From positions 1 to 44,420 of the forward strand of contig JACUUO010000006.1 of assembly GCA_014859275.1 (NCBI GenBank): a stretch of 44,420 nucleotides of DNA, in the 5' to 3' direction. The stretch is from Actinomycetota bacterium (GTDB lineage: Bacteria; Actinomycetota; Aquicultoria; Aquicultorales; Aquicultoraceae). Position 1 is the first letter of the stretch, and each line of letters starts with the position of its first letter. Positions 35,560 through 44,390 of the stretch are shown piece after piece. The notes beneath the pieces are model-generated. The model ran no database searches. It was not told the DNA's origin and was given only the letters and a program-made list of their open reading frames with translations. The position numbers and the translations under genes are program-made.

Positions 35560-36534
35560 CTACCGTTTGTGTTCGATGAGGCCGACGAATACATCCTCCA
35601 GGCTCGGCTCAACTTCCTGGATTGAGAAATCTTTAAAGCCGCTATTATATAGGTGCTCCCCTACTTTCTCTCCATCCGTGGCCGAATCAACCTTGGCGTG
35701 GATGGTGGCGCCATAAAAGTACGCCTCACTGACCCCAGATGCACTAGTGATAGCTCGAAGTGCTTCCTGAGACGCATCGATACTTACTTCAATGATTGCG
35801 CCTGTCATGTGCTCTTTCTTTAGCTGGTCTGGCGTACCTAAGGCGATCATATCACCCTGGAAGATAAAACCGAGCCGGTGGCAGTGCTCCGCCTCATCCA
35901 TGTAGTGGGTCGTTACAAACAAGGTTATGCCAGCCTCTGCCATATGATAGAGCATCTCCCAGAAGTTCCGGCGCGAGATAGGGTCGACACCGCCCGTCGG
36001 CTCATCGAGGAAGACCATTTCCGGCTCATGGATGATCGCGCAACCCAGGGCCAATCTCTGCTTCCAGCCTGTGGAGAGGTTTGCAGCAAGCTCATTCTCC
36101 CTTCCCTTCAGGCCGACCATCTCAAGAACGAAGTTCTTGCGCCCAGCAAGCCGTGCATCTTTAAGGCCATAGATACCGCCGTAGAAGTCGAGATTTTCGA
36201 CGACCGTAAGGTCGTCGTAAAGGCTAAACTTCTGCGACATATACCCGATACGGCGCTTGATCTCCTCGGATTGGGTGGCGACATCGAGCCCAAGCACGCT
36301 CGCTTGGCCCCCGCTTGGCTCAAGAATCCCACAGAGCATGCGAATGGTAGTCGATTTACCAGAACCATTTGGCCCCAAGAAACCAAATATCTCGCCGCGC
36401 TGGACATCAAAGGAGATGTTATTTACCGCGGTAAATACACCGAACTTTTTAGTAAGCCCGTCAACTACTATCGATTTTTCGTAATTGTTGTTTGCACTTC
36501 TCAAACTTTCCCACCCGTTTCGCTGTGATGCCAT
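35560..36534 (-). CDS. ABC-2 exporter ATP-binding protein (canonical half)
   Basis: The 324-residue product is a full nucleotide-binding domain with a C-terminal extension. Walker A is GPNGSGKST, the signature is LSTGWKQRLALG, Walker B is MVFLDEPTGGVDP, and the switch loop is FVTTHYMDEAEHC with the His intact. The order and wording resemble the second ATPase domain of E. coli YbhF. It is the last gene of the minus-strand efflux cluster, 443 bases from the preceding permease gene. With the degenerate ATPase at 39472 it would form an asymmetric pair driving the two permeases. Confidence 0.92.
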   Translation of the reverse strand: MASQRNGWESLRSANNNYEKSIVVDGLTKKFGVFTAVNNISFDVQRGEIFGFLGPNGSGKSTTIRMLCGILEPSGGQASVLGLDVATQSEEIKRRIGYMSQKFSLYDDLTVVENLDFYGGIYGLKDARLAGRKNFVLEMVGLKGRENELAANLSTGWKQRLALGCAIIHEPEMVFLDEPTGGVDPISRRNFWEMLYHMAEAGITLFVTTHYMDEAEHCHRLGFIFQGDMIALGTPDQLKKEHMTGAIIEVSIDASQEALRAITSASGVSEAYFYGATIHAKVDSATDGEKVGEHLYNSGFKDFSIQEVEPSLEDVFVGLIEHKR

Positions 36535-36977
36535 CTTGCATTGGATATACAGAGACCGTCATGAGATTGCCACGTCGCTCGCTTCGCTCACTCCTCGCAA
36601 TGACAGGTGTAATAGGACCATAGGTTTCTTTCCTAAACTACCCACTTTCAGTGGGTCGGGTGCTCCTCCTAAGGACACACTTCTTTTACCAGGAGTGTCC
36701 TTCCTTAAACTACCCACCTTCAGGTGGGTCGAGTGCTCGCAATAACAGGTATAATACATTGGCTATTGGCCAATTACCCACATCTCTTGCTTCCACTTGG
36801 CCAATGGCTAATCCCACACCTCTTTCCTACATTAACTGGTAACTGCAGCACTGGGTAACTGGATACCCACACCTCTTTCCCACATTCTGCAGCACGGCAG
36901 CACTGCAGCACTGGGTAACTGGATACCCACACCTCTTACCCTCACTTTCAACTCACCCATTCACCCATTCACCTATC
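36535..36977. repeat. Repeat-rich intergenic region
   Basis: Nothing here looks coding. A 35-base unit 'aaactacccac...gtgggtc' occurs at 36631-36665 and 36702-36737, each with its own CCCAC/GTGGG hairpin. Between them AAGGACAC (36671-36678) pairs with GTGTCCTT (36695-36702). Further on, a 36-base direct repeat ('gcagcactgggtaactgg' and 'atacccacacctctt') occurs at 36842-36877 and 36902-36937, with a 60-base period. Text near 36560-36605 resembles 'gcaatgaca'-ending extragenic repeats. Confidence 0.6.
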
Positions 36978-38108
36978 TCAATCAGCAAACCGTTTCTGGA
37001 ATCGCAGTACACTCACCCCGAAGATTAAAATCCCCAGGAGCGAAAGTATCAGCACCTGGTCCCAGAGCGCTGCCATTCCTACGCCCTTAAGGAATATCCC
37101 CCGCACTATTACTAAAAAATACCTGAGCGGGATTACATATGTCAGAACCTGGATGACCTTCGGCATGTTCTCTATCGGGAAGATGAAGCCCGAGAGCATC
37201 ATCGATGGCATCATGAAAAACCATGCGGTCATCTGCGCCTGGTGCTGCGTCCGTGATATCGTTGACACGAAGAGCCCCTGGCCTACCGTTGTGAATAAAA
37301 AGGCGATGCAAAGAGCCAACAACAAAAAGATATTTCCCCTAAAGGGGACGCCAAACCACCATACCCCAATCCCGACTATCAGGCCTATCTCGATGAACGC
37401 GATCGCTACAAACGGCAGCACCTTTCCCATTAAGAGTTCCCAGCGCTTTATAGGCGTAACTATGAGCTGCTCGAGCGTACCACGCTCCCGCTCCTTCACT
37501 ATCGCCACCGATGTGATGATCATGGTAATCAGCGTGATGATCATACCGATCAATCCCGGGACCATGTAGTTTACGCTCTTTAGATCGGGGTTGTACCATA
37601 CCCTGACCCTAGGCTCAACCGATGATACCTTAGGAGCAATAGCACTCATTGCCTCCATCCTGCGCCCCATCAGCTCCTGCGATCGTGCAGCGATTATTCC
37701 CATTGCGTACTGCTGAGCCTGCACACCGGCGTTCGCATCGGAGCCATCAAGGACGAGCATCACCTCGGCCACGCGTCCAGATTTTATATCGCTCTGGTAG
37801 CCCTTTGGCAGTATCACGCCAAGCGTCGCCTTATCCGCTCGGATAAGTTCGGGTACCTCCGATTCGCTGTTTACACGCCGCACGATCTCGAAGTACCCGG
37901 CGTTCGTAAACTTCTCTGCAATAATCCTGCTCTCGGCAGTGCGATCGCTATCGACAAGGACAACACCGATATGTTTGACCTCAGTCTGAACGACGTAACC
38001 AAAAAGGATCAGTTGTATAAGAGGAGCTATAAATAAGAGCGGTAGCAGTCTCCTATCCCGGAGAAGCTGGATTATCTCCTTCCTGGCAAGCATCAACACG
38101 CGGTTCAT
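36978..38108 (-). CDS. ABC-2 type permease (second)
   Basis: The 376-residue product has a first membrane helix (LLPLLFIAPLIQLILFGYVV), a large extracytoplasmic domain of about 130 residues (VLVDSDRTAESRII, LVLDGSDANAGV), then five helices containing GLIGMIITLITMIITSVAIV and the conserved EREKGTLEQLIVTPIKRWEL-type coupling segment (here ERERGTLEQL). This is the YhhJ/YbhR-type ABC-2 permease layout. The gene overlaps the upstream permease by four bases (ATGA), so the two are translated together and probably form a heterodimer. Confidence 0.93.
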   Translation of the reverse strand: MNRVLMLARKEIIQLLRDRRLLPLLFIAPLIQLILFGYVVQTEVKHIGVVLVDSDRTAESRIIAEKFTNAGYFEIVRRVNSESEVPELIRADKATLGVILPKGYQSDIKSGRVAEVMLVLDGSDANAGVQAQQYAMGIIAARSQELMGRRMEAMSAIAPKVSSVEPRVRVWYNPDLKSVNYMVPGLIGMIITLITMIITSVAIVKERERGTLEQLIVTPIKRWELLMGKVLPFVAIAFIEIGLIVGIGVWWFGVPFRGNIFLLLALCIAFLFTTVGQGLFVSTISRTQHQAQMTAWFFMMPSMMLSGFIFPIENMPKVIQVLTYVIPLRYFLVIVRGIFLKGVGMAALWDQVLILSLLGILIFGVSVLRFQKRFAD

Positions 38109-39235
38109 GCAAACGCCCTCCTCAGGCGCACCGAAGCGATGATGATCATCAGCGTTGCAAATAGTGCGAGCGCCATAAGGTTGGGCCAGAGCACGCTAAT
38201 TCCGACACCCTTTAAAAAGATGCCCCTTATAACCACGAGGAAATACCGAGCTGGCACTAAGTACGTTATATATTGTAGTACCAGTGGCATGCTCTTTATG
38301 GGAAATACGAAACCGGAGAGCAGGAACGCCGGGAGAAACGTCGTCATAAACGCCCCAAAGCTCGCCACCTGCTGTGAATCAGTAGCCGCTGAAATCACCA
38401 GCCCCAGCCCTAGCGTCCCGGCAACGTAGATTATCAGGCTAAAGAAGAGTAAAAGAAGGCTTCCGTTCATGGGCACCTTAAACCACAGCGTACCAACTGC
38501 TGTTATGAGAACTGCCTCAAAGAAAGCGATCACAACATAGGGGATTATCTTCCCCAAGATGATTTCCCAGCTCTTAACCGGCGATATGATGATGTTCTCG
38601 AGTGTACCCCTCTCCTTCTCGCGAACGAGCGCAACCGATATGCTGATTGTGGTAACGGTCATCATGATCAAAGCCATCAAACCCGGCACTATAAAATTAA
38701 CGCTTCGTAGCTCAGGGTTGTACCAGACCCTAGCCCTGATTTCGATCGGTGATAGATCCCGCGTAATTGCAACGCCCTTTTTATAGAGAGAATCCGCCGT
38801 CACCTTTGCCGAAAACCTGCCGATTATCGCCGATGAATAGCCGGTTGCCACCCGAGCTAGATTGGGATCTGAGCCATCGACGAGGGCCTGTACCTTGGTA
38901 TTCTTGTCAGATAGGATGCTATCCTCAAACCCTTTAGGGATAATGATCGCTACTTTAATCATGCCGGCATCAAGCCTCTCGGCAAAATCGGCCTTACTTG
39001 GTCTAGCGGTTATATCAAAGTAGCCTGAGCTTGAAAAATTCTCTATCAGCCTTCGACTGGTGGCCGACCGGTCGCTATCATAGATAGCGACCGGTATATG
39101 GTTAATATCCAAGCTCAGCGCATAACCGAACATAAGCAGCTGGAAAAGCGGCAGGAACAGTGTGATGCCGAGCGTCCTCGGGTCGCGCAGGATATGTATA
39201 AATTCTTTTCGTGTGATCGCTTTTATGAGTCTCAT
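38105..39235 (-). CDS. ABC-2 type permease (first)
   Basis: This is the same layout and length as its neighbour: an N-terminal helix (ITLFLPLFQLLMFGYAL), an extracytoplasmic domain (AIYDSDRSATSRRLIENF, ALVDGSDPNLARVA), and five C-terminal helices with REKERGTLENIIISPVKSWE. The two permeases are clearly paralogous, from a tandem duplication typical of the YbhS/YbhR pair. It overlaps the second permease by four bases. The family exports drugs, ions or lipids; the substrate is not readable from sequence. Confidence 0.93.
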   Translation of the reverse strand: MRLIKAITRKEFIHILRDPRTLGITLFLPLFQLLMFGYALSLDINHIPVAIYDSDRSATSRRLIENFSSSGYFDITARPSKADFAERLDAGMIKVAIIIPKGFEDSILSDKNTKVQALVDGSDPNLARVATGYSSAIIGRFSAKVTADSLYKKGVAITRDLSPIEIRARVWYNPELRSVNFIVPGLMALIMMTVTTISISVALVREKERGTLENIIISPVKSWEIILGKIIPYVVIAFFEAVLITAVGTLWFKVPMNGSLLLLFFSLIIYVAGTLGLGLVISAATDSQQVASFGAFMTTFLPAFLLSGFVFPIKSMPLVLQYITYLVPARYFLVVIRGIFLKGVGISVLWPNLMALALFATLMIIIASVRLRRAFA

Positions 39236-39310
39236 ACCGTCTTCACCTTTTATTAGCTACAGGGACTTTATAGTTTAAATCATTACCTACATAACCAGCA
39301 CTTGCATTTT

Positions 39311-39380
39311 GTAGCGCAGCCCTTCAGGGCTGCTATAAAGGCGCCTGATGCCATATAGCAGGGCTAAAGCCCTGCGCTAC
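39311..39380. repeat. Family A two-armed palindromic element, copy 2
   Basis: The left arm GTAGCGCAGCCC then TTCAGGGCTGC and the right arm (39354-39380) GCAGGGCTAAAGCCCTGC then GCTAC repeat the architecture of 7237-7346. It lies in the 236-base gap between the ATPase and first permease genes, inside the predicted efflux operon. Confidence 0.7.
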
Positions 39381-39471
39381 AACGAAAACGATTAAAGTCT
39401 CTAGGACCGGTCCAGTTTCTTCGCTTATCTATAAGCTATGCCTTGTGCCCTTCAGCTCGCCTTTAGTCTGC

Positions 39472-40410
39472 TTATTCTTGGACCCTTTGCCTTGACCTCT
39501 TCATCATCTCGATGAATGCACTCTCCATAGTCTGGGCTTTCGGTATCGCCGATATAACCTCGACCTTATCTGAGAGATCGCATCTCAATCTCTCGATAGC
39601 CTCTGAAGCGGCATCCACAGTAACCAGCAGCCGCTCACCATACACCTCCACATCCCGGACGTAGCCGAGCCCGCGCACTATCCTTCGCGCCTCACGCTGC
39701 GGCTTTGCAATAAGCTCTACTATCTCGCCACTTAGAGATGTCTTTATGGACTGCGGGGAATCGCACATGCTTATCTTTCCATTATCTATAAAGGCAACCG
39801 TTGAGCAGCGCTCCGCCTCATCCATATAAGGCGTGGAGACGAGGAGCGTTATGCCCCTGCTTCTGAGCTCGGATAGTATTGCCCAGAACTCGCGCCTGCT
39901 GACCGGATCGACGCCGGTTGTGGGCTCATCGAGAAAGAGTATTTCTGGCTCATAGATGAGGGTACATGCAAGCGCGAGTTTCTGCTTCATGCCACCCGAT
40001 AAGAACTCGGCCTGGCGGTCTGTAAAGGCCTCAAGTCGCGCGAAGTGGAGGAGTTCTTTCATCCTCTTGGCGTGCTCAGCCTCGGGGAGGCCGTAAATGT
40101 CGGCAAAAAAGCGCAGATTTTCCTCGACCGTTAAATCCCCGTAGAGATTGAATCTCTGCGACATATAGCCAATGCGGCCACGAACAGCCCTGGCCTCGCG
40201 CACTATGTCCTTGCCCCACAGCCTCACCTCACCGGAGGTGGGCTTCAGAATCGTTGAGAGCACGCGGATGGTCGTCGTCTTGCCAGCTCCATCTTGCCCG
40301 ACAAGGCCGAATATCTCGCCTTCTTTGACCCGGATGTTGACGCCATCGACCGCCCGCACACTTGGGAAATCAACTATTAAGTTTTCTGTTTCAATAACGT
40401 GTCTGATCAT
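39472..40410 (-). CDS. ABC-2 exporter ATP-binding protein (degenerate half)
   Basis: The product has Walker A GQDGAGKT, signature LSGGMKQKLAL and Walker B LFLDEPTTGVDP, but the switch loop reads LLVSTPYMDEAERC. Pro replaces the His that polarises catalytic water in active ABC ATPases. The same oddity occurs in the first ATPase domain of the fused YbhF type. It is therefore probably a non-hydrolysing partner of the canonical ATPase at 35560. The start is uncertain: a GTG, an ATG at 40410 or one at 40434 are all in frame, without a clear ribosome-binding site; 40410 fits the family best. Confidence 0.9.
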   Translation of the reverse strand: MIRHVIETENLIVDFPSVRAVDGVNIRVKEGEIFGLVGQDGAGKTTTIRVLSTILKPTSGEVRLWGKDIVREARAVRGRIGYMSQRFNLYGDLTVEENLRFFADIYGLPEAEHAKRMKELLHFARLEAFTDRQAEFLSGGMKQKLALACTLIYEPEILFLDEPTTGVDPVSRREFWAILSELRSRGITLLVSTPYMDEAERCSTVAFIDNGKISMCDSPQSIKTSLSGEIVELIAKPQREARRIVRGLGYVRDVEVYGERLLVTVDAASEAIERLRCDLSDKVEVISAIPKAQTMESAFIEMMKRSRQRVQE

Positions 40411-40552
40411 CACTAAGTACCTATAACCACCCATGTATAGGGCTCATACCTATCATAGTTAGCCCATCGGCACGATGTCATAAAGTGCCAATGTACTGCC
40501 GTCAGTGCCAACGTTCCAAAGTGCCAATGTACTGCCGTGCCAATATCCATTC

Positions 40553-40745
40553 GTACCTACATCTTAGCTGTGTGCTATTCCTTAGGGCCGAGACGTCGGC
40601 CCATCACGGGCCTCCCTGGTCTAAGAAAACTCACAGTTTCTATAGCCAGTAGGGGCCCTGAGCCTGTCTCGACCCTTCCTAGGGCTCATACGCCCGATAA
40701 ATCGGGCAACTACGGGCGGACACAGGGTCCGCCCCTACGTATTGG
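40553..40745. repeat. Family B/C composite dispersed repeat, copy 3
   Basis: Shared text with 3110-3335 and 19697-19850 includes 'gtgctattccttaggg', 'ggcccatcacgggcc', 'ctaagaaaactcacag', 'tatagccagta' and the palindrome CCCGATAAATCGGGC with 'actacgggcggacac'. The order of blocks differs from copy 1. Confidence 0.65.
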
Positions 40746-40792
40746 ATGATCATGGCTAATGGCTGATCTCTCTCATCCTCCACCCACGTTGA

Positions 40793-40826
40793 TACGCCCG
40801 ATAAATCGGGCAACTACGGGCGGAGA
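40793..40826. repeat. Family B palindrome
   Basis: TACGCCCGATAAATCGGGC followed by 'aactacgggcgga' is a second family B copy within about 100 bases of the one at 40689-40723. CCCGAT and ATCGGG pair, and CGCCCG and CGGGCG flank. Confidence 0.65.
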
Positions 40827-41158
40827 TAAACTCCGCCCCTACAGCACTGGATAACTATCCCCACATCTCTTACCCACATCAACATTGGCACTTTGGCACA
40901 GTATAGTTAGTAGTTCATAGTTCATAGAATAGTACCCACACCTCTTACCCACATATTGGCTATTGGCTCTTGGCCATTGGCTGATCTCCCTCATCTACTG
41001 CCCACATCAATAGTTAGTAGTTCATAGAGTAGTGACTACGCCTCTTACCTATATATCGACCGGAGACAGGGGACCGAAGACCGGTGACTGCCTTACCAAC
41101 ATCTCTTACCCACACCCCTGGACCCTGGCCTCCGATTCACCCGTAACCTGGCAACCAG

Positions 41159-41923
41159 CTACCGTAATTCTGCATCTGCCGGCATGCCGGGCTTTAATAA
41201 GCCATCAGCGTTATCAACCTTGATCGTCACGCCAAAGACGAGATTGCTCCTCTGCTCCTTTGTCTGCACGTTTTGCGGGGTGAATTCGGCCCCGGATGCG
41301 ATTTCAGTGACCCTGCCTGTAAATTTCTTACCTGGAAACGCGCCGGCTTTAATTACTAACCCCTGGCCTATCTTAACCTTCCCCAACTCCTTTTCATCTA
41401 CATATATTGTTAATTCAAGCGAGGAGACCTTCCCTATAACAGCCAGCGTGAAGCCAGGGTTTACCATCTCGCCTTCTCTGAGTGGTAGACTTAATACAAT
41501 CCCATCGGCCGGCGATTTTATAACCGCATATGATTGCTGGATTCTTGCGATTGAGAGGGCGGCTTCGGCTTGTTTTAATTGAGCGCTGGCGGCCCTTTTC
41601 TCGGCGTTGGTATCAGCATCGTCCAATGCGGCCTGTGCCACCTCAACACCAGCTTGAGCCGCTAATACCTGATCTTTTAACACGCGATCATCGAGAGTTA
41701 CCAGAGTGTCTCCCTTCTTGACCTTACCCCCTTCTTTGGCCTTAATCGCTATGACTTCGGCGGCAAGCTGGGAGCCGATATGCACCTCCATCGCCTCAAG
41801 TGTCCCAGAACCTTCGATTTTTCCATTTGAGGAGCCTTGCACGCCCGCATAGTAGTACCAACCAGTGCCAGCAGTTGCGAATAAAATAAGCATCAGAGGA
41901 ACCACAATCAGTCTCTTTTTCAT
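41159..41923 (-). CDS. Membrane fusion (HlyD-type) protein, short form
   Basis: The 254-residue periplasmic adaptor has an N-terminal anchor (MKKRLIVVPLMLILFATAGT), a biotinyl-lipoyl half (VIAIKAKEGGKVKKGDTLVT), a coiled-coil hairpin (LAAQAGVEVAQAALDDADTN), the second lipoyl half (VIKSPADGIVLSLPLREGEM) and a barrel domain. It resembles YbhG. The ATG at 41923 follows GGGAGG; the frame is open five codons upstream. It is the second gene after tetR on the minus strand, 33 bases after the longer paralogue. Confidence 0.92.
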   Translation of the reverse strand: MKKRLIVVPLMLILFATAGTGWYYYAGVQGSSNGKIEGSGTLEAMEVHIGSQLAAEVIAIKAKEGGKVKKGDTLVTLDDRVLKDQVLAAQAGVEVAQAALDDADTNAEKRAASAQLKQAEAALSIARIQQSYAVIKSPADGIVLSLPLREGEMVNPGFTLAVIGKVSSLELTIYVDEKELGKVKIGQGLVIKAGAFPGKKFTGRVTEIASGAEFTPQNVQTKEQRSNLVFGVTIKVDNADGLLKPGMPADAELR

Positions 41924-41956
41924 AATCGATCCTCCCAATAAACCAATTTCCTGAAA

Positions 41957-43306
41957 CTATACGCCACCGGTTATTACCCTCACATCCGCCGGCATGCCCG
42001 CCTTGAGAATACCGTCCTCGTTTACAACCTCAACTGTTACATGAATAACCCGGATAAGTTCGAGCTCACTTGATGTAAGGTTGGTGGGCGCGAACATGGC
42101 CTTGCCACCAAGACCAATTACTCTGCCTTCAAAAATCCGGCCCGGCGCCGTGTCGACCATCACCTCAACAGTATCCCCTTTTGCAATACGCCCAGCGTCC
42201 TTCACCGGGATATAGATATTGAGTCTCAACCTATCCTCGTGGGTAATCGACATCACCACCTGGCCTGGATATAGAACCGAACCCTCAGCTATCTTAAGAT
42301 CTTTAATTCTCCCGGAGGTTCCAGCCCTGATTTTGGTCGTTTCCATAACCTTTCGAGCGATCGCCAGCCCCACTTCCGCCTGATCCCTTCTCTTTTTGAG
42401 TACGGCAACCTTACCCGCAATCTCGGAGGTACCCTCCCCTACCTTTCTTCGACCTTCAGATATATTGACCAGACCCTCATTCATCTTGCTTAGACCCTGG
42501 TTGAACCTTTGTTTGCCGGCCGCAAGCCCAGCCGTGGCACGAGCAATCCCGGATTCGAGCTGGGATTTTACCGCAGATAGCTGGCGAATAGCTTCGCCAA
42601 GCTCCGCCTGCTTGCGAACTGCCCCCTGAAGCGTAGCGTTTGCCTGCTCAATTCGCTGGGCTTTCGTGGGATCACTATCCGGGAGGGCTTGAGCGCTATC
42701 GAGCGCCTTCCTCGCCTCGCTCTCCGCCCGGGTGGCTGCTGCAAGCCCGGCCTGGGCCCGTTCAAGCCCTGATTTCACTGATGCCAGCTTCTCCTGCATC
42801 TGGGTGATCTTCGCCTGTCCCTCTGCATACTTTGCGCTAAATTCACGCTTCGCCTCAGCGCGCTTCGATTTAAGCTCAACTTCTGCCTCGTTCAACTCGC
42901 TCCTCTTCTCGGTGAGCTCACCGCGCTTATCTTCTAAACCCTCTATCGTTGCCTGTATAAAATCGTATTGGGCCTGCGCTTTTTTAAGGTTTTCCCTGGC
43001 CAGCCCTCCGGAGATTGTAAGCAACGGATCGCCCCGCTTGACCAGATCCCCTGGCTCGACATGTAACGCTTCAACTACCCCGGCGGGCTTGCGGGGACCG
43101 GATTTGCCGGTCGATGATTTTAAGCCCTTATTCATGTCCATCCCGAGCAGGGCAAGCTCTACCGGTATGCCCACTGCAACCTTTTCTTCTTCGAGAATGC
43201 CGGATGCTTCTACCGCGCGACTTTTCTGTCCGGCCTCAGCGAAGAACGCCATTGAAAGAGCTATCAACAATACCGTTATGGCTACCGCCGCAACCTTAGC
43301 CTTCAT
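41957..43306 (-). CDS. Membrane fusion (HlyD-type) protein with long coiled coil
   Basis: The 449-residue protein has a signal or anchor helix (VAAVAITVLLIALSMAFF), a lipoyl half (GVVEALHVEPGDLVKRGDPL), then a very long coiled-coil hairpin from about residue 115 to 320 (Ala/Glu/Lys/Gln-rich), the second lipoyl half (TKIRAGTSGRIKDLKIAEGS) and a beta-barrel domain ending in AGMPADVRVI. The long hairpin would reach across a thick wall or to an outer-membrane partner. It overlaps tetR by 11 bases and follows GAGGCAGGG. Two adaptor genes in one cluster is unusual. Confidence 0.92.
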   Translation of the reverse strand: MKAKVAAVAITVLLIALSMAFFAEAGQKSRAVEASGILEEEKVAVGIPVELALLGMDMNKGLKSSTGKSGPRKPAGVVEALHVEPGDLVKRGDPLLTISGGLARENLKKAQAQYDFIQATIEGLEDKRGELTEKRSELNEAEVELKSKRAEAKREFSAKYAEGQAKITQMQEKLASVKSGLERAQAGLAAATRAESEARKALDSAQALPDSDPTKAQRIEQANATLQGAVRKQAELGEAIRQLSAVKSQLESGIARATAGLAAGKQRFNQGLSKMNEGLVNISEGRRKVGEGTSEIAGKVAVLKKRRDQAEVGLAIARKVMETTKIRAGTSGRIKDLKIAEGSVLYPGQVVMSITHEDRLRLNIYIPVKDAGRIAKGDTVEVMVDTAPGRIFEGRVIGLGGKAMFAPTNLTSSELELIRVIHVTVEVVNEDGILKAGMPADVRVITGGV

Positions 43307-43946
43307 ATCCCTGCCTCAAGCCGTTTATCGCTATATCAATCGTATTTTCCGCGATCTCTTTGGTATTAATTTTTCCGGTAAATAGCTTAAACTGCAGAGC
43401 TTGGCCGATCACCAGACCCAAAATCGCCACTGCAGCCCGCCCCGGGTCCACCTGCCTGAATTCGCCCGATTGAATGCCCTCTTTGATTATAGATTCGAGT
43501 CGGTTTAAATACTCCCGGCGAAAGCCGGCCATAATTTCCCTAACTCTTGAATCATTTGACACCAGGCTTTGCGCGAAGAAGGGCATAACCGGCCCGACAG
43601 TCTTTACTATCTTAAGATGATTGCGAATTATAATCTCGATCTTTTCTGAGGCGGTTGTAGCTTTCTCGATACCCTTTCCTATCTTTGCGAAAAGGCGCAC
43701 CTTGGCAAACCGTATCAGCGAGAGCAAGAGGTCTTCCTTCTTCTCGACGTAATAGTAGATGGTCCCTTTGGCAATACCCGCATCATTGGCGATGTCCTGT
43801 ATCGATGTGTTATCGAAACCCTTCTCATTAAAGACCTTTGCTGCGCTCGCCATTATCTTGAGGCGCGTGCGCTCACTCTTCGTCATCGGGCGGGACTCGT
43901 CCTCAAAAAGCTCTATTATGTTATCGGTGTCTCTCGTCTCGACCAT
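43296..43946 (-). CDS. TetR/AcrR family transcriptional regulator
   Basis: The 216-residue product has an N-terminal helix-turn-helix (IMASAAKVFNEKGFDNTSIQ, then DIANDAGIAKGTIYYYVEKK) and a helical ligand-binding domain with the C-terminal AAVAILGLVIGQALQFKLF. It is the first gene of the efflux cluster, in the position of E. coli CecR (YbiH), which represses ybhGFSR. Three operator-like palindromes lie directly upstream over its own promoter, so autorepression is very likely. A start at M21 (MTKSERTRLK) is possible. Confidence 0.94.
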   Translation of the reverse strand: MVETRDTDNIIELFEDESRPMTKSERTRLKIMASAAKVFNEKGFDNTSIQDIANDAGIAKGTIYYYVEKKEDLLLSLIRFAKVRLFAKIGKGIEKATTASEKIEIIIRNHLKIVKTVGPVMPFFAQSLVSNDSRVREIMAGFRREYLNRLESIIKEGIQSGEFRQVDPGRAAVAILGLVIGQALQFKLFTGKINTKEIAENTIDIAINGLRQGYEG

Positions 43947-44001
43947 ACTCCATTCCCCTGCAAGGCAATCTGCTAATTAGTATCTTCCCTTTTTGCCGAA
44001 A

Positions 44002-44076
44002 TTTCGACCAGCTGGTCAATTTAATTATAGTATTTTCGACCGATCGGTCAATAATTTTCGACCAATCAGTCGAAAA
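44002..44076 (-). promoter_or_regulatory. Sigma-A promoter with three TetR-type operators
   Basis: The minus strand has TTGACC (44046-44051), a 16-base spacer and TATAAT (44024-44029). Three 12-base palindromes GACC-NNNN-GGTC or GTC overlie it: GACCAGCTGGTC (44006-44017), GACCGATCGGTC (44038-44049) and GACCAATCAGTC (44060-44071), the last extended by TTTTC/GAAAA. Their centres are 32 and 22 bases apart, close to whole helical turns, so the regulator would bind on one face. The middle site covers the -35 box and the first site covers the start point. Confidence 0.85.
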
Positions 44077-44218
44077 TTTTTAATTTATTGTCGGGCAGGG
44101 ACGACTGTCCGGAGGGCTTTCGCAATTCGATGCTTCTAGCTATTGACAGCTGTCATCCCTTCGGCTTGCTCAGGACAGGTCTGAACGTAGCGTAAGCGGA
44201 GTGAAGAATCTAAATAAT

Positions 44219-44390
44219 ATCGTCATTATTATGCCACTAGGTAGCATATGATCAATAAGGTGTTGGTTGATACAAAGGCATTCTAATACTTAAAAATATA
44301 GAAAATACGATTTAGATCCTTCGCCTCCGTTTCCCCTTCGGCTTCGCTCAGGGCTTCGACTCACCCGGCTCAGACACCCTATGTCAAGCC
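44219..44390 (+). repeat. Family D dispersed repeat, copy 3
   Basis: This is a direct copy of 28370-28634, starting with 'cgtcattattatgcc' and 'ctaggtagcatatgatc', with 'gatacaaaggcattctaat' and 'gatccttcgcctccgtttcc'. It diverges after 'cacccggctcaga'. The window ends 30 bases later. Region 44080-44218 before it has no gene; it holds 'caggacaggt' and 'gtaagcggagtgaagaatct' text of the same repeat style. Confidence 0.75.

Follow-up and report, generated by a model that had tools for sequence, protein, structure and literature searches.

Three putative operators on the promoter of a TetR-family gene heading a YbhGFSR-like ABC-2 exporter operon

The window, by which we mean the whole 44,420-nucleotide stretch of DNA that was analysed, contains an operon on the minus strand whose first gene encodes a TetR-family regulator of 216 aa (tetR, 43296–43946). 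Membrane-fusion protein 1 (HlyD-like, 41957–43306, minus strand, with HlyD_3 and HlyD_D23 matches) overlaps the tetR stop by 11 bases and is conserved beside tetR, and it is followed by membrane-fusion protein 2 (HlyD-like, 41159–41938, minus strand), which was assigned by a domain match and whose best equivalog-type match, PRK03598 secretion protein HlyD, is below cut-off. The remaining genes, also on the minus strand and assigned by domain and synteny, are ABC ATPase 1 (39472–40434, ABC_tran), ABC-2 permease 1 (38105–39235, ABC2_membrane_3), ABC-2 permease 2 (36978–38108, ABC2_membrane_3), and ABC ATPase 2 (35560–36534, ABC_tran and DrrA1-3_C, with synteny in G001, G004, G007 and G008). All of the exporter genes lie downstream of tetR in the same direction, the gene order is also found in relatives, and the regulator and pump genes remain linked there. 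The ordered series of TetR regulator, HlyD-type fusion protein, ABC ATPase and two ABC-2 permeases is that of a YbhGFSR-type system, an assignment by layout and not by equivalog, and as judged from its predicted products the operon encodes a YbhGFSR-like ABC-2 exporter for small molecules. HlyD-type fusion proteins usually span to an outer membrane, and here two of them (41957–43306 and 41159–41938) are encoded in a genome that is probably actinomycetotal.

Three gaps interrupt the operon, at 40435–41158 (724 bp), 39236–39471 (236 bp) and 36535–36977 (443 bp), and co-transcription of the distal genes is therefore uncertain in this genome. The first gap is full of short repeats, among them one of 29 nt, CGCCCGATAAATCGGGCAACTACGGGCGG, that occurs 35 times across the genome when up to three mismatches are allowed (control, 0); the junction between the first fusion protein and the ATPase is only ~10–25 bp in G005, G004 and G007. 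Further repeats, CTTCGGCTTGCTCAGG and CTTCGGCTTCGCTCAGG, are located at 44150–44200 and 44318–44365 of the window and resemble dispersed intergenic repeats.

Both domains expected of a TetR-family protein score above their Pfam gathering cut-offs in the regulator, with 55 bits against 24 for the N-terminal helix-turn-helix (TetR_N, PF00440) and 50.9 bits against 26.4 for the C-terminal ligand domain (TetR_C_24, PF17932). It reaches no NCBIfam equivalog cut-off. The best score is for FadR, at 86.8 bits versus a cut-off of 200, so that it cannot be assigned as Bacillus FadR, and assignments as RutR (45.1 bits versus 368) or as an orthologue of CecR (YbiH; 22.7 bits versus 365) were likewise rejected. 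FadR/YsiA and DarR are both among its PDB matches, and Bacillus FadR/YsiA and mycobacterial DarR are its closest named relatives by sequence. On these comparisons the regulator is an uncharacterised member of the TetR family, nearest to the FadR-type regulators.

Upstream of tetR are three similar palindromes of about 20 bp, read here on the minus strand, on which inspection of the sequence and a repeat finder agree, the latter returning copies of 22 nt each at 44000–44021, 44032–44053 and 44054–44075. We refer to these putative operators as O1 (upstream; 44056–44075, core 44060–44071, minus strand GACTGATTGGTC), O2 (44034–44053, core 44038–44049, GACCGATCGGTC), and O3 (44002–44021, core 44006–44017, GACCAGCTGGTC). 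Two of the cores are exact GACC-N4-GGTC and the third is GACC-N4-AGTC, and the centres are 22 bp (O1–O2) and 32 bp (O2–O3) apart. Two or more GACY-N4-RGTC sites occurred in none of 20,000 dinucleotide-preserving shuffles of 43947–44130, and a motif-free test found three similar palindromes in no shuffle. A family of three such palindromes is present at a single place within the 44-kb window.

The array is superimposed on a strong match to a promoter. On the minus strand, TTGACC (44051–44046) and TATAAT (44029–44024) are separated by 16 bp and match 11 of the 12 consensus bases; the -35 box is the left arm of O2, and when the last T of TATAAT is counted as -7 the predicted start is 44017, where the O3 core begins. 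In this numbering the O2 core extends from -32 to -21 and the O1 core from -54 to -43. An earlier reading of the sequence alone had described three palindromes with centres 32 and 22 bp apart that overlap the -35 box and the start point, and both parts of that description hold. Its further proposal, that these are TetR operators on a sigma-A promoter, agrees with a promoter of the sigma-70/A type and, as to the operators, is very probable given that the array is retained upstream of tetR orthologues.

We compared seven promoters, the one in the window and those of the six relatives (among 98) that have a tetR orthologue, all of which belong to the same family and share 59–72% protein identity. 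The sequence around the array has diverged, and the array itself is kept on the orthologous promoter. All six orthologous promoters have O2 on the -35 box together with TATAAT, such that O2 is present in 7/7 with a -35 box of TTGACC or TTGACT, and the -10 box is identical throughout. O3 is present in six of the seven, being missing only in G002, and O1 is recognizable in five: among the relatives, G005, G002 and G001 have a good copy, that of G007 is degenerate, and in G009 and G004 the site is either broken or missing. Because G002, G004 and G009 each lack one outer site, the full set of three is not essential. The 18 recognizable sites yield a symmetric motif of 20 bp in which the GAC and AAA positions do not vary; in the direction of transcription it reads WWTTGACCRNNYGGTCGAAA. 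In a phylum-wide sample, paired upstream sites (O1 and O2) were found in 4 of 296 genomes, each time at the tetR promoter.

The spacings behave differently from one another. The O1–O2 distance is 22 bp in all five genomes with a recognizable O1, and the O2–O3 distance is 32 bp in five of six, the exception being G001 with 34 bp. The -35/-10 spacer of G001 is 18 bp instead of 16 bp and the distance of O3 from the -10 box is unchanged, suggesting that the promoter, and not the helix, sets the O2–O3 distance. Since O3 tracks the -10 box and O1 is always 22 bp from O2, it appears that the promoter determines the position of O3, and O2 that of O1. Several relatives have a divergently oriented, rubrerythrin-like gene on the upstream side of the tetR promoter (L077 1982–2509, L023 2797–3333 and L026 9985–10446). 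Divergent control of this gene was considered and set aside, as no site conservation ties the array to it; the contig of the window ends 474 bp upstream of tetR, before any rubrerythrin-like gene.

A natural deletion is seen in sister genus g4, in which both G003 and G008 keep the exporter genes and have tetR cut to its last ~40 codons, with the first ~170 residues deleted. A single operator is left before the tetR remnant, joined directly to tetR codon ~173. The junction is common to both species, so an assembly error in a single genome does not account for it. The remaining operator is TTGACCTAGCGGTCGA in G008 and differs by one substitution in G003; by our reading of the sequence, the flank to its left is most like that of O2. 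Loss of the DNA-binding part of the regulator thus accompanies loss of the array, although the deletion may itself have removed other sites such as O3, and this is weak evidence for a coupling of the two. A perfect motif match in G008 (C103) does not represent an additional target in a genome lacking tetR: it is the remnant of the same promoter beside the truncated gene. At the two sister-genus loci with the shortened tetR (L077 2703–2848 and L078 4060–4216) the first fusion protein has 298 aa, versus 449.

The sequence-only reading had also offered GACC-N4-GGTC as a searchable operator with which to scan the genome for a regulon. Neither use succeeds: the pattern is exact in only two of the three sites, and its 35 matches in the genome, compared with 60 in the reversed control, show no enrichment. 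A loosened 18-bp motif was similarly rejected as a regulon finder (139 matches versus 123 in the control at two mismatches). Within the window, WWTTGACCRNNYGGTCGAAA marks a single locus. A pattern search of the genome with the 18-bp motif and at most one mismatch returned the three operators and 16 other places, all within open reading frames, one of them near a contig end (C48) in a 91-codon frame; no other intergenic site was present among the matches examined at this threshold. With every one of these other matches placed in an open reading frame, the regulator probably acts locally, controlling its own operon only.

The palindromes overlap the regulator's own promoter and are conserved with it. 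As they sit on the promoter of a TetR-family gene and recur upstream of its orthologues, they are very probably operators of the adjacent regulator. Building on the observed sites, promoter match, conservation, linkage and local uniqueness, we infer that this regulator binds them and, with high likelihood, represses its own operon through all three. A plausible course of events is that, without inducer, dimers on O2 would mask the -35 box and spacer and dimers on O3 the start point, while O1, at its fixed distance of 22 bp, would carry an adjacent dimer that probably stabilizes the one on O2. From what is known of the family, a small molecule that the exporter likely transports would then free the dimers, such that regulator and pump are transcribed together. 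Binding by another regulator of the same genome would accommodate the several further TetR-like candidates it encodes (10 at first look) and the fact that a GACC-GGTC core is common among TetR regulators, but the array adjoins only tetR, and the sister genus without the regulator's DNA-binding part has one site; we regard this as very unlikely. A role for the palindromes as RNA hairpins or as a terminator is more improbable still. A terminator scan did report one terminator-like stem at O1 (44053–44078, plus strand), and the 5' end of the RNA would fold into a short stem at O3, but shuffles average 0.6 terminator-like matches, O1 and O2 are upstream of the predicted start and absent from the operon RNA, and the operator arms are kept as sequence, not by pairing alone.

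If the adjacent regulator does repress through these sites, how they would act together is a separate question. The sequence-only reading had placed all three on one face of the DNA, on which dimers would contact or loop to give strongly cooperative, switch-like repression. At 10.5 bp per turn, 32 bp and 22 bp are 3.05 and 2.10 turns, so that both spacings are indeed near whole turns, and the 22 bp does not vary among five genomes; moreover the dimers of DarR, a relative by sequence, interact when bound, albeit at a single site of 20 bp, and its operator (TAGATACTCCGGAGTATCTA; PMC10636190) is unrelated. By simple arithmetic, however, both spacings fall within 1 bp of whole turns by chance about once in 12, such that phasing alone is a weak argument, and phasing of all three is not conserved: the 34 bp of G001 (3.24 turns) tracks its 18-bp promoter spacer, which weakens the argument for O3, and one outer site is missing in each of G002, G004 and G009. 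We consider phasing of the whole array somewhat doubtful. That the sites are independent, redundant operators, with O2 and O3 each blocking RNA polymerase and the number of sites raising effective repressor occupancy, is a reasonable if tentative proposition, as the spacing that O3 retains is to the -10 box and not to O2, and either outer site can be lost; it leaves the invariant O1–O2 distance without a need, though shared descent could account for this in five genomes. The fixed spacing favours cooperativity between O1 and O2, for which a sharp response is possible. An unlikely arrangement, for which we found no description in any exporter regulator, would combine these elements, with O1 and O2 forming a 42-bp composite operator for two contacting dimers 22 bp apart, its downstream half being the -35 box, and O3 acting independently as a roadblock whose place the promoter sets.

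TetR-regulated promoters that carry several operators are already known, as in Tn10, where two tandem operators, tetO1 and tetO2, lie between the divergent tetR and tetA genes. The locus described here is similar in having a TetR-type repressor and tandem palindromic operators over a promoter that is presumably autoregulated, and differs in that up to three operators serve one promoter and one of them contains the -35 box. The operator of RutR is TTGACCANNTGGTCAA, which has nearly the same palindromic core, TTGACC-N4-GGTC, although the regulator itself is different. In Escherichia coli, CecR (YbiH) binds at its exporter genes, the ybiH-ybhGFSR operon (PMC7190983, PMC6790063). The two operons are alike in starting with a tetR-family gene followed by genes for membrane-fusion protein, ATPase and two ABC-2 permeases, and in placing a regulator on its own exporter operon, as reported for E. 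coli and as predicted here, whereas the operon in the window has two fusion proteins and two separate ATPases. With the search terms used, we found no relevant paper on triple TetR operators in the open literature. The array is a well-conserved further case, with informative natural variants, and not a new kind of system. These variants (a lost O1, a lost O3, a spacer 2 bp longer, and a deleted regulator) separate what determines the position of each site, the promoter for O3 and the neighbouring site for O1. The host probably belongs to an uncultured lineage of Actinomycetota in which few regulators have been studied, and WWTTGACCRNNYGGTCGAAA is a specific, testable candidate operator for an uncharacterised exporter regulator.
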